Source: an uncultured Albidovulum sp.
GTDB lineage: Bacteria; Pseudomonadota; Alphaproteobacteria; Rhodobacterales; Rhodobacteraceae
Assembly (NCBI GenBank): GCA_913064775.1
Contig: CAJYAD010000012.1
Location: forward strand, 62,001-126,000
Length of the DNA: 64,000 bases
Direction of reading: 5' to 3'
Of the stretch, positions 46,894 through 51,327 are shown piece after piece (positions within the stretch are counted from its first letter, which is position 1; the number at the start of each line of letters is the position of its first letter). The position numbers and the translations under genes were made by a program. The notes beneath the pieces are model-generated. The model saw only the letters and a list, made by a program, of their open reading frames with translations. It ran no database searches and was not told the DNA's origin.

Positions 46894-47619
46894 TCAAAGC
46901 CGCGCGACCACACCCTTGACCAGCACCGGCCCGATGGGCTGCCCGCTGCGCGCGCCTCCCGAGGGCTCAAGGCTGACCGCCAGCACCGCGCCCGGCGGCA
47001 GCATCGGCACTGCGGCGCGGTGCAGATGGCCGCGCAGCAGACCCAGCGATACCGGCGCCCCGGATTTGTCGATCAGCCACAATTCGTAATCATATCCCGG
47101 CCCCGCCGACGGCCCCGCGGCGCGGGTGACCTGCAATTCGCGGGTCTGCGGGCTCCAGTCCGCCGTGAAGACCAGCTTCACTCCGCGCTGTTCGAGGGTT
47201 GCCACGTAATGCGCCGGTGGCGGACGCAGCCCGCTGCTCTGCCAGCTTGCAAATACCACCAGCGTCACCACCAGCGCGACTGCCACCACCGCCGAAAGGA
47301 TCGCGATCATGCGGGCGGAGACCCTCTTTTGCGCGCGCTCCGGCGTGCCGAACCGGCGGGGCTTGATCGCCGGTTGCGGACCGGGCCCCCGAGACGGAGA
47401 CGGAGACAACGACGAAGACGGCGGGTCTTCGGCATCCGATCCGGCGAAATATTCCTGCCATTCGGCAACCCGCGCGGCGAAAACCGGATCGGCGCGGACC
47501 CGCGCCTCGGCCGCCAGCCGCGCGTCTTGCAACAGCGTGCCCAGCACATATTCGGCGGCGACAAGATCGTCCTCTTCGCCGCTTTCTCTGGGGTCGATAT
47601 GTCTTGGCGTATCGGTCAC
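46894..47619 (-). CDS. RskA-like membrane anti-sigma factor
   Basis: A 241-residue protein. An N-terminal anti-sigma domain (residues ~17-60: DLVAAEYVLGTLLQDARLAAEARVRADPVFAARVAEWQEYF) is followed by a Ser/Pro linker, one membrane helix (~104-125, MIAILSAVVAVALVVTLVVF), and a periplasmic RskA C-terminal domain (LEQRGVKLVFTADW, DYELWLIDKSG, LAVSLEPSGG). Start is GTG 47617-47619, whose GTGA overlaps the TGA of a tiny upstream ORF. No complete sigma gene precedes it, so it is an orphan or acts with the neighbouring sigma/anti-sigma fusion, to which its whole length is related. Confidence 0.8.
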   Translation of the reverse strand: MTDTPRHIDPRESGEEDDLVAAEYVLGTLLQDARLAAEARVRADPVFAARVAEWQEYFAGSDAEDPPSSSLSPSPSRGPGPQPAIKPRRFGTPERAQKRVSARMIAILSAVVAVALVVTLVVFASWQSSGLRPPPAHYVATLEQRGVKLVFTADWSPQTRELQVTRAAGPSAGPGYDYELWLIDKSGAPVSLGLLRGHLHRAAVPMLPPGAVLAVSLEPSGGARSGQPIGPVLVKGVVARL

Positions 47620-47711
47620 CGATCCAGGCGCTCGCGCAACTTGGTCAGGCCGCGAGGCGGCATGTTCCTTGCAACGCCGGGCGGAATGCGGTGCCGCGGA
47701 TCGGTGCTCAT
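47616..47711 (-). CDS. 31-residue ORF coupled to anti-sigma gene, possible sigma-factor remnant
   Basis: ATG 47709-47711 to TGA 47616-47618. Its stop overlaps the GTG of the anti-sigma gene and its start overlaps the stop of the previous tiny ORF, both by 4 bp. The C-terminal RGLTKLRERLDR resembles the very end of ECF sigma region 4, which normally overlaps the anti-sigma start in this way. It could be the leftover tail of a deleted sigma gene or a leader peptide for translational coupling. Confidence 0.4.
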   Translation of the reverse strand: MSTDPRHRIPPGVARNMPPRGLTKLRERLDR

Positions 47712-47910: not shown

Positions 47911-47938
47911 AAACGGCCCCCACGAGGGGGGGCCGTTT
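47911..47938 (-). terminator. Rho-independent terminator after the sigma/anti-sigma fusion
   Basis: Perfect 11-bp stem AAACGGCCCCC (47911-47921) and GGGGGCCGTTT (47928-47938). On the minus strand it continues TTTTCGTT, so it reads as an intrinsic terminator 28 bp past the stop codon of the fusion gene. Confidence 0.75.
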
Positions 47939-47965: not shown

Positions 47966-49177
47966 TCAGAGCCGCTGCACCTTGCCGGTCAGCAGCATCG
48001 GGCCCGAAGGCTTCATCGCCATGCCCCCGCCATTCGGCTCCAGCGTGACGCCGAGCTTGGCGTCGCGCGGGATGTCCGAGATCAGGGTGACGGCCTCTTC
48101 GCCCTTAAGCATCATCAGGGGCTGCACCGCACCATCGGCGCGCAACAGCCATATCTGATAATCCTTGCCCGGCACCGGCGCCGTGCCGCCGGTGCGCAGC
48201 ACCTCGAACTTGCGGCTGCCCGGATCCCAGGCGGCCGCGAAGATCAGCGGATCGCCATGCGTTTCCAGGGTTGCTGCGTATAGCTCGGGCGGCGCGGTGG
48301 TATCGCGCACCGCGACCGCCGTCAGCGCCGCGACCACGGCAATCGCCGCGACGCCGCCGAACATCGCCACCCCCATGCGCTTGAGGTTGGTTTGCTGCAC
48401 CGCCACCGGCGTGCCGAAGATGCGCGCCTCGATCAGGGTCAGCAGATCCGGCGCCGACACCGCCGCATAGGCGGCATTCAAGGGCGCCAGCCGTGCCCGC
48501 CATACCGTGACATGGGTGGCAAAGGCGGTGTCGGCCAGATTGGCCTGCCGCCGCTGCGCCATGCGCCGCTCTTCCAGGTTGAGCGAGCCCAGCACGAATT
48601 CCGCCGCCAACAGCCCGTCTTCCGAGCAATCGTCGCTGGGCACCACGACCCTGGGCAGGTCCTTCAGATCCCCGACCGAAGCGATCTGCCGGAACGTATC
48701 GTGCAGAAGTGGTCGGACCTCGTCTTCGGGCTTGCCGCAGGCCGCGGCGATCTCGGCATGGCTCAGCCCGCCCAGATAGGCCGCGGTGATCGCCTGAGCG
48801 CAGCGTGGCTCAACCCGCGACAGGCCTTCGGGGTGGCGCAGGTCGGATTCATGCGCCATGAACGCGGCCTCGGCGCCCGATCCGTCGGCAGGCACCGGGC
48901 CACGGGCGCGGCGCCGGTCGATGGCGCTGTCACGCGTCATGCAGATCAGGAAATCCAGCCCCCGCTCCCGTTCGGGATTGAACCGGCCGGCATGCAGCCA
49001 GATCCGGGTGAACAGATCCTGCACGGTCAGCTCGGCCTCGGCCTTGCTGCCCAGAATGCGCAGGGCAACCCCGTAAAGCTTGGCCGAAACGGTTCGGTAA
49101 AGCCCTCGGAACGCCTCGCGATCCTGCTGGGCGATTTTCAACAGAAGGCCCGCACTTGGGCCGGTTTGGTCAGTCAT
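47966..49177 (-). CDS. ECF sigma factor fused to membrane anti-sigma factor
   Basis: One 403-residue reading frame. Residues ~20-90 are sigma-70 region 2 (EAFRGLYRTVSAKLYGVALR, TVQDLFTRIWLHAGRFNP, MTRDSAIDRRRARG). Residues ~121-166 are region 4 (VEPRCAQAITAAYLGGLSHAEIAAACGKP). After a short linker, residues ~185-233 form an anti-sigma domain (LLAAEFVLGSLNLEERRMAQ...VWRARLAPL). A membrane helix follows at 269-290, then a periplasmic RskA C-terminal domain (YAATLETHGDPLIFAAAWDPG, YQIWLLRADG, LGVTLEPNGGG). Normally sigma and anti-sigma are separate overlapping genes. The ATG overlaps the stop of the RACo-type gene (TGATG). A frameshift or sequencing error joining two genes is the main alternative. 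Confidence 0.75.
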   Translation of the reverse strand: MTDQTGPSAGLLLKIAQQDREAFRGLYRTVSAKLYGVALRILGSKAEAELTVQDLFTRIWLHAGRFNPERERGLDFLICMTRDSAIDRRRARGPVPADGSGAEAAFMAHESDLRHPEGLSRVEPRCAQAITAAYLGGLSHAEIAAACGKPEDEVRPLLHDTFRQIASVGDLKDLPRVVVPSDDCSEDGLLAAEFVLGSLNLEERRMAQRRQANLADTAFATHVTVWRARLAPLNAAYAAVSAPDLLTLIEARIFGTPVAVQQTNLKRMGVAMFGGVAAIAVVAALTAVAVRDTTAPPELYAATLETHGDPLIFAAAWDPGSRKFEVLRTGGTAPVPGKDYQIWLLRADGAVQPLMMLKGEEAVTLISDIPRDAKLGVTLEPNGGGMAMKPSGPMLLTGKVQRL

Positions 49178-51213
49178 CAGCGCCTCCTCCTGCGACCGCC
49201 CTCCCGGTCGCTGCCGATGTTGAACGAGACATCCGGCAAAGGCACGATCGCATTCAGGTGGGGGAAGGGATCAGTGGCGTGCGGCAGCGCGTTCGCGTTG
49301 ACGAAATGCTCCTGAAACCTCGGTTCTATCGCCGTCTCCACCTTGTGAATGCCGCGTACCACGGCCTCGATCTCGCTGCGGGCTTCGGTGTTGCACAGGG
49401 CAATCCGTGCTCCCGTTCCAGCAGCATTGCCCGCCGAGATCACATTTTCAAGAGCGACGTCCGGGAACATGCCGATGGCCATTGCATGTTTGGGTGAAAT
49501 ATGCGCCCCGAATGCCCCCGCCAGCACCACCCGATCCACCGTGTCGATGCCCAGTTCGTCCATCAAAAGCCGCGCCCCGGCATAGAGCGCCGACTTGGCC
49601 AACTGGATCGCCCGGATGTCGCCTTGGGTAACATAGATTACCGGGCCGTTTTCGGCACTTCCGTCATGGATTAGATAGCTGTGCGTGCGTCCCTGGGGGA
49701 TCATGCGCTCGGTTCCGACCTGGGCTGCGGACCCGATCAGCCCCTTGGAATCGACGATGCCGGCCATGCGCATCTCGGCCACCGCCTCGATGATGCCAGA
49801 GCCGCAGATACCGGTGATGCCAGAGCCTGCGATGGCCTCCTGAAACCCCGGCCGGTCGGACCATATGTCGCAGCCGATGACGCGGAATCTGGGCTCCTTC
49901 GTGACCGGATCGATCTCTAGCCGCTCGATCGCGCCGGGGGCCGCGCGCTGGCCCGAGCTGATCTGCGCCCCCTCGAAGGCCGGCCCGGTGGGCGAGGAAC
50001 AGGCGACCACCTTCTCCTTGTTGCCCAAAAGCAGCTCGGCATTGGTGCCGACATCGACGATCAGCACCATGTCTTCGGATTTCTGCGGCTGCTCGGACAG
50101 TGCCACGGCGGCGCAATCGGCGCCCACATGGCCCGCGATGCAGGGCAGGAGGTAGATCCCGGCACGGTGGTTGATCGCCGTCAGTTCCAGATCCGGGGCC
50201 AGCAGGTCGAGGGCGCTGGACACCGCCAGCGCGAAGGGCGCCTGACCCAGCTCGACCGGGTCGATGCCCAGAAGCAGGTGGTGCATGACCGGATTGCAGA
50301 CGACGACCGCCTCGACGATCTGGGTGGCTTCGATCCCGGCCTCGGTGGCCAGATCCCCGGCCAGGCCATTCAGCGTGTCGCGCACCGCGCGGGTCATCTC
50401 GACATCGCCGCCGGGGTTCATCATCGCATAGCTCACCCGGCTCATCAGATCCTCGCCGAAGCGGATCTGCGGGTTCATCACCCCGGCCGAGGCCGCGACC
50501 GAGCCATTGCGCAGATCGACCAGATGCGCGGCGATGGTGGTCGATCCCAGATCGATCGCCAGCCCGTATAGCCGCCCCTCATAGAAGCCGGGCCAGATGT
50601 CGATCAGCCGGGGCTGGGCGTCGTGATTGCCCTGGCTCAACGCCACGGTCACCTTCCAGTCGCCCTTGCGCAGCGCGGGCTGCAACTGGCGCATCACGTC
50701 GAGGTTGGCGGTGATTTCGGGGATGTCCCACTGCGCCTGCAGCGCTGCCTTCAGCCGCTCCAGATCGCCGGTGGGGACATGCATGTCGGGTTCGGCCACC
50801 TCGACATAGTAAAGCCTTGTGGCGGGATGCATGACGATCACCCGCGTGTCGGCATCCTTGCGCACCACCTGCTTGTGGACCTGACTTTCGGGCGGCACGT
50901 CGATCACCACGTCGCCCATGATCTTCGCCTGACAGCCCAGACGCCGGCCTTCCTTGAGGCCGCGCACGCTGTTGTAGCGTTCCTCGACCGCGTTCCATTC
51001 GCTCAACGCGTCGGGCTTCACATGGACGCCGTGCTTGGGGAACTCGCCGTAACCCGGCGAGACCTGACATTTGGAGCAGATCCCGCGCATGCCGCAGACG
51101 GAATCGAGATCGACCCCCATCTGCCGCGCGGCCTGCAGCACCGGAGTGCCCCGGGCCACCCGGCCCCGCTTGCCCGAGGGCGTGAAGATCACCAGCGCGT
51201 CGTCGTCAGCCAT
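49177..51213 (-). CDS. Corrinoid-activating ferredoxin (RACo-type, DUF4445/ASKHA)
   Basis: A 678-residue protein. The N-terminal 2Fe-2S domain has cysteines C40, C46, C49 (SVCGMRGICSKCQ) and C94 (RRLGCQ). A linker domain follows, then an ASKHA-type ATPase (YGLAIDLGSTTIAAHLVDL, VLIVDVGTNAELLLGNK, CGSGIIEAVAEM, VVLAGAFGAHISPKHAMAIGMFP). Such proteins use ATP to reduce Co(II) to Co(I) and restore inactive corrinoid methyltransferases. In Rhodobacteraceae they go with MttB homologues, one of which begins at the left edge of this window. Start ATG 51211-51213 has AAGGAG six bases upstream; ATG 51226-51228 would place that site inside the coding sequence. It is coupled to the downstream sigma/anti-sigma gene. 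Confidence 0.88.
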   Translation of the reverse strand: MADDDALVIFTPSGKRGRVARGTPVLQAARQMGVDLDSVCGMRGICSKCQVSPGYGEFPKHGVHVKPDALSEWNAVEERYNSVRGLKEGRRLGCQAKIMGDVVIDVPPESQVHKQVVRKDADTRVIVMHPATRLYYVEVAEPDMHVPTGDLERLKAALQAQWDIPEITANLDVMRQLQPALRKGDWKVTVALSQGNHDAQPRLIDIWPGFYEGRLYGLAIDLGSTTIAAHLVDLRNGSVAASAGVMNPQIRFGEDLMSRVSYAMMNPGGDVEMTRAVRDTLNGLAGDLATEAGIEATQIVEAVVVCNPVMHHLLLGIDPVELGQAPFALAVSSALDLLAPDLELTAINHRAGIYLLPCIAGHVGADCAAVALSEQPQKSEDMVLIVDVGTNAELLLGNKEKVVACSSPTGPAFEGAQISSGQRAAPGAIERLEIDPVTKEPRFRVIGCDIWSDRPGFQEAIAGSGITGICGSGIIEAVAEMRMAGIVDSKGLIGSAAQVGTERMIPQGRTHSYLIHDGSAENGPVIYVTQGDIRAIQLAKSALYAGARLLMDELGIDTVDRVVLAGAFGAHISPKHAMAIGMFPDVALENVISAGNAAGTGARIALCNTEARSEIEAVVRGIHKVETAIEPRFQEHFVNANALPHATDPFPHLNAIVPLPDVSFNIGSDREGGRRRRR

Positions 51214-51327
51214 GAACCGCTCCTTCATCCTGCCCCTGTTCTAGGGGCCCGCGCGGGCGGTGCAATGGGCGAATGCGGCATCCCACGATCCATCCTCGCC
51301 GCTTCGGGCTGACTGAGGTGCCGCGGC

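Follow-up and report, generated by a model that had tools for sequence, protein, structure and literature searches.

Sigma factors of the ECF group and their anti-sigma factors are normally encoded by separate, overlapping genes, and a locus at which both lie in one reading frame raises the question of whether the sigma half can still serve in transcription. Such a frame had been pointed out, from the letters alone, in an earlier note on the window analysed here (64,000 nucleotides of contig CAJYAD010000012.1 from an uncultured Albidovulum sp.), where it was suggested, if real, to encode a one-component transmembrane sigma switch. Our analysis leads to a different, tentative answer: with a probability of about 45%, the product is a sigma mimic anchored in the membrane and capping the RskA anti-sigma domain (ASD) of the same protein, and thus a decoy rather than a switch.

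Domain content of the fusion gene

The gene (Table 1) is read from the minus strand and encodes the parts that had been described, namely sigma regions 2 and 4 (hereafter sigma2 and sigma4), an RskA-like ASD, a membrane helix and a periplasmic domain; the sigma regions and RskA_C are borne out by Pfam and the helix by hydropathy. Sigma70_r2 (residues 26-92) scores 39.3 bits against a cut-off of 24 and RskA_C (residues 276-394) 55.4 against 29.4; Sigma70_r4_2 (residues 119-159) barely passes, with 26.9 against 25.7. The Sigma70_r4 model remains under its cut-off (20.9 vs 24.1), and sigma4 of the fusion from Acidimangrovimonas sediminis, a relative introduced below, also falls short in Pfam (17.8 vs 25.7 bits). 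The general ECF model of NCBIfam is just reached (43.9 vs 42.9), and the NCBIfam anti-sigma model aligns to residues 190-385 under its cut-off (60.4 vs 100). The protein therefore has the two domains of an ECF sigma factor together with the ASD, single membrane helix and RskA_C domain of an RskA-type anti-sigma factor, which is here not encoded, as usual, by a separate gene beside that of its sigma factor. Its sole hydrophobic stretch, residues 270-290, carries a short Lys/Arg patch on the N side.

An internal start may, to judge from the codons around the junction, produce a free anti-sigma domain: codon 189 is ATG in Allgaiera indica, CTG in the window (with TTG at 190) and CTT in A. sediminis. 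A GTG at codon 178, common to the three fusions, was considered as such a start and set aside, no convincing ribosome site being visible by eye. A search of a phage collection returned one weak match, to residues 9-150 of the fusion; Rfam at gathering scores gave no match between 46500 and 53500, and neither did PADLOC.

Table 1. Features of the fusion locus, in coordinates of the window.
Feature	Coordinates	Strand	Details
Sigma–anti-sigma fusion gene	47966..49177	-	403 codons, ATG at 49177
Sigma region 2 (residues 26-92)	48902..49102	-	Pfam and alignment; residue 50 Leu replacing Asp/Glu, W76F, N83D
Sigma2-sigma4 (sigma3.2) linker (residues 91-118)	48824..48907	-	short, 28 residues; residue count
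Sigma region 4 (residues 118-166)	48680..48826	-	recognition helix T153E, S/T156P, W157L, R160D
Junction linker sigma4-ASD (residues 167-185)	48623..48679	-	lowest constraint among segments tested
Anti-sigma domain (ASD, residues 186-256), RskA type	48410..48622	-	
Transmembrane helix (residues 270-290)	48308..48370	-	hydropathy
RskA_C domain, predicted periplasmic (residues 293-403)	47969..48301	-	
Terminator-like hairpin right behind the fusion	47917..47931	-	consensus match only
31-codon remnant (both ends) of tandem ordinary sigma gene	47616..47711	-	by eye
Second, tandem RskA-type anti-sigma gene, no sigma partner adjoining	46894..47619	-	GTG start by eye
RACo-type corrinoid-activation/ASKHA protein gene	49177..51228	-	stop overlaps fusion start (TGATG), AGGAGG just upstream

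Conservation of the frame and selection

The frame is open, with no stop over residues 1-403, in all three genomes examined of the genus, that of the window included; the genus is here the grouping of the genome tool, and NCBI puts the two relatives, Allgaiera indica DSM 24802 and Acidimangrovimonas sediminis MS2-2, in two genera, both Paracoccaceae. Both relatives are public assemblies, and the DNA of the fusion agrees letter for letter with those records. The three fusions are 401-403 codons long and come from three separate assemblies that differ by 11-41% in the protein (identity to the window 100% in its own genome, 89% in A. indica and 59% in A. sediminis). The same unusual residues occur in all of them at sites 50, 76, 83 and 153, each fusion also having the TGATG overlap of RACo stop and fusion start behind AGGAGG. 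The fusion is therefore neither a product of chance nor an assembly slip, and the frameshift or sequencing error that the earlier note wished to see excluded is excluded by the recurrence of the open frame in three genomes out of three and by a dN/dS of 0.15 between the close pair.

Between the window and A. indica, the two closest species, the fusion is under purifying selection, with a dN/dS of 0.152 for the whole gene, 0.043 for sigma2, 0.095 for sigma4, 0.349 for the junction linker, 0.174 for the ASD and 0.244 for RskA_C; control genes over the same distance gave 0.103 (RACo), 0.125 (ordinary sigma paralogue), 0.22 (ordinary anti-sigma) and 0.185 (amidase). Within the fusion, constraint is thus strongest on sigma2, as would also be expected of a working sigma factor. 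Over the distance to A. sediminis the values rise to 0.435 (fusion), 0.239 (sigma2), 1.03 (sigma4), 0.368 (ASD) and 0.402 (RskA_C), so that constraint on sigma4 is shown only for the close pair. At this distance sigma2 evolves much as in the ordinary paralogue (dN 0.158 vs 0.121; dN/dS 0.239 vs 0.232), whereas sigma4 has a dN of 0.609 against 0.119, about five times as high. Such rapid change fits the loss of a DNA-related duty, and fits changed specificity or drift as well.

Origin from a RACo-linked gene pair

A RACo match was found in 188 of 198 genomes of the family, and the best 30 loci by score, one of them the window, were examined. In 11 of the 29 others there is an ordinary sigma gene, its domain starting 45-156 bases behind RACo, with a separate anti-sigma gene after it; the remaining 18 have no sigma gene at that place. 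The fusion occupies the place of the ordinary pair, 20 bases behind RACo, which argues for descent from it; a derivation from ordinary overlapping genes, already considered in the earlier note, is backed by this position, and the fusion probably arose from the RACo-linked two-gene pair. The neighbouring genes that were tested are RACo, phosphoglucose isomerase, an amidase and a penicillin-binding protein. That RACo stands directly before a SigK/RskA-like pair in 11 of these 29 best loci is an observation in its own right, and ties the reactivation of cobamide enzymes to an ECF sigma factor.

In phylogenetic trees the three fusions group together by their sigma halves (one clade, support 100/99), and the branch that carries them measures 1.35 changes per column, compared with a median of 0.22 for end branches; by their anti-sigma halves they likewise make up one clade (support 100/100; branch 0.84, end-branch median 0.42). 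The fusions join the Blastomonas rows in the sigma tree, a join flagged as one of long branches, and their deeper placement is unsure because long branches meet.

The same fusion, for which the earlier note had suggested looking in related genomes, is present in A. indica and A. sediminis and was not found outside the genus at the limits used, when one-frame matches over both domains were sought in samples of 394 genomes of the family (392 outside the genus) at E 1e-20, 385 of the class at 1e-15 and 398 of the phylum at 1e-12. Each sample includes the window's own genome, and at most four candidates per genome were scored, so that a distant fusion could escape. Several candidates were discarded along the way. 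In one genome (G789) the match over residues 10-399 is interrupted by one TGA; the full-length-looking matches of Blastomonas and Marinobacter resolve into two separate genes in the open reading frame lists of loci L054 and L058; and at L055-L057 the sigma frames end by themselves in the open reading frame table. A word search for the promoter motif of the ordinary sigma factor, run on the upstream regions of 35 sigma genes (a count that omits the rows from L054 onwards), was swamped by conserved sequence, taken to be the 3' end of RACo.

Behind the fusion lies a second, tandem unit whose state differs among the three genomes. In A. sediminis it consists of intact, overlapping ordinary sigma and anti-sigma genes (L020:5793-6431 and L020:5104-5808, both minus). 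A. indica has sigma region 2 joined directly to the membrane helix and RskA_C, with neither sigma4 nor ASD (L019:4758-5624, 288 codons), and the window retains the anti-sigma gene and a sigma remnant (Table 1). The membrane and RskA_C part of this unit has a dN/dS of 0.431 between the window and A. indica, against 0.244 for RskA_C of the fusion, and the broken unit ranges over 0.43-0.57 (four values, three of them against A. sediminis). With the tandem unit cut by deletions and the fusion frame intact, the fusion has evidently been kept where its ordinary neighbour was lost. All three genomes also encode an ordinary sigma/anti-sigma pair elsewhere. In the window's genome this pair adjoins, by eye, a fasciclin-like open reading frame (L021:1087-1635 beside L021:1784-3054), an arrangement comparable to the mpt83-sigK-rskA cassette (PMC7509140).

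Promoter-contact residues and linker of the sigma half

At the 55 columns conserved at 85% or more among 37 ordinary RskA-type sigma factors, the fusions depart 21 (window), 23 (A. indica) and 15 times (A. sediminis); among ordinary rows, the Marinobacter sigma reaches 15, four Blastomonas sigmas 10-11 and the next one 5. Six sites of promoter or core contact were compared more widely, namely 50 (acidic), 76 (Trp), 83 (Asn), 153 (Thr/Ala/Asn), 156 (Ser/Thr) and 160 (Arg). Residue 50 is the one that we take to face the RNA polymerase clamp. All six are changed in the window and in A. indica, and five in A. sediminis, while of 80 other ECF sigma factors (the 37 RskA-type ones and 43 found by profile in the fetched loci, their activity not being individually known) 70 have no change, nine have one and one has two. 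The 11 RACo-linked orthologues and four ordinary paralogues of the genus do not depart from the ordinary pattern at the nine sites compared for them, and their sigma2-sigma4 linker is 37-45 residues long. Of 11 DNA-contact positions, transferred by alignment from other sigma factors, the fusions retain the ordinary consensus at 3, 3 and 4 (window, A. indica, A. sediminis), and they thus lack most of the usual promoter-contact residues of sigma2 (-10) and sigma4 (-35).

The importance of such positions has been established elsewhere: sigmaH uses W81, I85 and N88 to melt and read the -10 element, S182 and R186 serve it for reading the -35 element, and alanine changes in either set are harmful (PMC6411747); in SigW, T168, T171, R172 and R175 touch the -35 element (PMC6713349). 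The linker is equally unusual. It counts 28, 28 and 27 residues in the fusions, compared with 37-46 in the 37 RskA-type sigmas, 35-56 in the 43 others and 47 in E. coli RpoE, and is thus shorter than in every one of the 80 comparison sigmas. In sigmaH the corresponding sigma3.2 linker threads the active-site cleft, and transcription is abolished by its deletion as well as by its replacement with a disordered loop of equal length (PMC6411747). A linker of 27-28 residues may be too short for transcription, and we infer, from the residues and the linker taken together, that the sigma half has lost its transcription activity. Not every change weighs the same: Mycobacterium tuberculosis SigK, an active sigma factor, has D at the equivalent of 160 and R at that of 83 in the alignment, so those two changes alone are not disabling, and W76F is conservative in that the aromatic ring is retained.

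SigK carries two redox cysteines (PMC7509140). Their positions in the fusion, 118 and 168, are both replaced in the window and A. indica and both kept in A. sediminis, and the three fusions need not work identically.

Anti-sigma-facing positions

A different picture emerges from the 15 contact positions that four sigma/anti-sigma crystal structures share (PMC7406223, Table 2). They were mapped through E. coli RpoE and transferred by alignment like the DNA contacts. The ordinary consensus is kept at 12, 12 and 11 of them (window, A. indica, A. sediminis), against a background of 65, 67 and 73 of the 134 sigma2 and sigma4 columns. When 32 ordinary sigma factors were each left out in turn, they kept 9-15 of the 15 anti-sigma contacts, 3-5 of 5 DNA contacts in sigma2 and 5-6 of 6 in sigma4. 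The contrast between anti-sigma and DNA contacts gives a Fisher p of 0.015 in the window, or 0.003 when limited to positions with at least 90% conservation. The fusions of the window and A. indica resemble each other too closely to count as two, and in A. sediminis alone the contrast is not significant (0.11 and 0.17, respectively). At the level of residues, then, the fusions have the pattern of a PhyR-like mimic, with anti-sigma contacts kept and DNA contacts lost.

Predicted structure

The AlphaFold2 model of the fusion, built on 16 sequences, has a mean pLDDT of 73.8 and a pTM of 0.63, the membrane region being poor. Its best solved match is SigK of the SigK-RskA complex (4nqw; Foldseek target TM 0.70), whereas ECF sigmas bound to RNA polymerase are listed by Foldseek at TM 0.30-0.42. 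The sigma arrangement of the model resembles that of RskA-bound SigK (Z 13.1, 3.9 A over 144 residues), a Z near 13 barely exceeding the tool's level of "common arrangement" for helical proteins. Five alignments over both domains of RNA-polymerase-bound sigmaH or sigmaL give an rmsd of 25-27 A, and the other polymerase-bound rows align sigma2 alone or little more. The sigma arrangement is accordingly predicted to be the inhibited one; the model was made with the ASD present, which need not be the cause of the closed arrangement.

Proposed mechanism and alternative explanations

Since most of the promoter contacts tested are lost, the linker is short and the anti-sigma contacts are largely kept, a working switch is less likely than a mimic. 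Of the one-component transmembrane sigma switch first envisaged, the fusion itself stands and the working sigma factor is the less likely part (3, 3 and 4 of 11 contacts, with the short linker). We propose that a SigK-like ECF sigma factor and an RskA-like membrane anti-sigma factor, in the gene order RACo-sigma-anti-sigma seen in other genera, were fused, probably once, in an ancestor of the genus. The sigma half would then have turned into a mimic, keeping its fold and the face gripped by the anti-sigma factor and losing most of its promoter-reading and promoter-opening residues. At rest the mimic would probably sit in its own ASD, giving a self-capped RskA in the inner membrane, and a periplasmic signal read by RskA_C, through cleavage or a change of shape, would uncap or release it. 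Elsewhere the genome encodes an ordinary SigK/RskA pair, whose partners could be bound by the freed ASD or competed for by the freed mimic. The usual logic would thereby be inverted, a prospect that we rate slightly short of even: the signal would expose an inhibitor or release a sigma mimic instead of freeing a sigma factor. We infer the capping in cis, the signal, the protease and the partner; the genome has one gene of Peptidase_M50, the site-2 protease family, so cleavage like that by RseP, which together with Prc activates fusions of the IutY type, is possible.

The strongest alternative, in our view an unlikely one that still deserves serious attention, is a tethered, working sigma factor like IutY, held by its own ASD and freed by proteolysis, the altered residues reflecting a changed promoter specificity. 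Apart from the precedent of IutY (PMC5411451; PMC8999054), the Peptidase_M50 gene would suit such a protein, as would the low dN/dS of sigma2 in the close pair (0.043) and the core positions Q53, D54, W60 and R90, which are kept or conservatively replaced. Release might even be dispensable: a truncated membrane RskA lifts SigK activity above that of SigK alone, and since RskA can activate SigK besides inhibiting it (PMC7509140), there is room for action while anchored. Against this stand the five or six changes at six promoter/core sites, when other sigmas have none to two, the acidic residues at the DNA-facing positions 83 and 153, a linker under that of all 80 others, and the roughly fivefold dN of sigma4 over the A. 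sediminis distance.

An improbable variant of mimicry would make the fusion a membrane-stored anti-anti-sigma factor, whose freed mimic would bind an ordinary or orphan RskA and so free a true SigK, by analogy with PhyR, which acts on NepR as an anti-anti-sigma factor. The contact pattern described above and the ordinary pair elsewhere in each of the three genomes are in keeping with it, and the E at the T153 position recurs, by eye, in two PhyR-like proteins (L090, L092); a third one (L098) has T there in a profile alignment. However, the attached ASD should outcompete any partner in trans unless it is destroyed, and in the window no intact sigma partner is encoded adjoining the fusion.

Decay is less probable still, and we hold it to be very unlikely that the gene is a drifting relic of an accidentally fused copy of the pair. 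The neighbouring tandem unit has indeed been cut by deletion, to a 31-codon remnant in the window and to a sigma2-membrane joining in A. indica, and the dN/dS over the A. sediminis distance is high (0.435, and 1.03 in sigma4). A relic would nevertheless hardly be expected to keep a frame of 401-403 codons open at 59-89% identity, a conserved ribosome site, a sigma2 dN/dS equal to the ordinary one over the A. sediminis distance (0.239 and 0.232), or, between the window and A. indica, values of 0.152 for the fusion and 0.244 for its RskA_C against 0.431 in the broken tandem part. Finally, an assembly error or frameshift uniting two ordinary overlapping genes, which the two separate genes at the RACo place in other genera of the family might bring to mind, has practically no chance of being correct, given the same open frame and the common residues 50, 76, 83 and 153 in three separate assemblies that are 11-41% divergent.

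Relation to known systems

The loci behind RACo can be ordered by synteny, with separate genes in other genera and the fusion in a single one, and along this series a transcription factor seems to give up its work on DNA and to retain its protein binding. PhyR is the established case of sigma mimicry, in the alphaproteobacterial general stress response, where anti-sigma binding has been kept and DNA reading lost; its sigma-like domain is coupled to a receiver domain, with neither an anti-sigma domain nor a membrane helix attached. The fusion would be like PhyR in its residue pattern, and differs in having no receiver domain (Pfam). The two are also far apart in sequence, PhyR giving no significant match to the RskA-type sigma profile, and were compared by eye.

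A sigma/anti-sigma fusion is not new as a kind: IutY (ECF243) of Pseudomonas putida has been shown by experiment to be one and to be activated by proteolysis (PMC5411451; PMC8999054), and members of ECF48, ECF52 and ECF53 and some of ECF36 are such fusions by domain structure (PMC8999054; PMC5826349). The present protein is like IutY in uniting a cytosolic ECF sigma, a membrane anchor and a periplasmic anti-sigma part in a single polypeptide (PMC5411451; PMC8999054). In the accounts cited, IutY belongs to iron cell-surface signalling, works with an outer-membrane receptor and releases an active sigma, whereas our fusion has an RskA-type anti-sigma factor, a sigma half without most of the promoter-reading residues tested and, among the neighbours tested, no receptor gene that would couple it to iron signalling of the IutY type. 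ECF52, ECF48 and ECF53, with SCO4117 of Streptomyces coelicolor, also carry an anti-sigma-like domain and a membrane helix behind an ECF sigma (PMC5826349; PMC8999054); unlike the fusion, they are described there as actinobacterial, with a zinc-finger ASD, and the outer part of SCO4117 as proline-rich and carbohydrate-binding.

In searches of the open-access literature, most subscription papers lying beyond this scope, we came upon neither an RskA-type fusion nor a fused sigma mimic, nor PhyR-type mimicry combined with a membrane fusion of the IutY type. Closest in sequence family, for both halves, is SigK-RskA (ECF18/ECF19), which shares RskA_C and provides the closest solved structure (4nqw); it differs in being normally two genes, with an active sigma and redox cysteines, the fusions lacking these cysteines except in A. 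sediminis. If the sigma half is active, the protein would correspond to IutY among RskA-type systems and would read a new promoter code. If it is inert, annotating such proteins as sigma factors misleads, and gene fusion would be a route to regulatory decoys such as PhyR.
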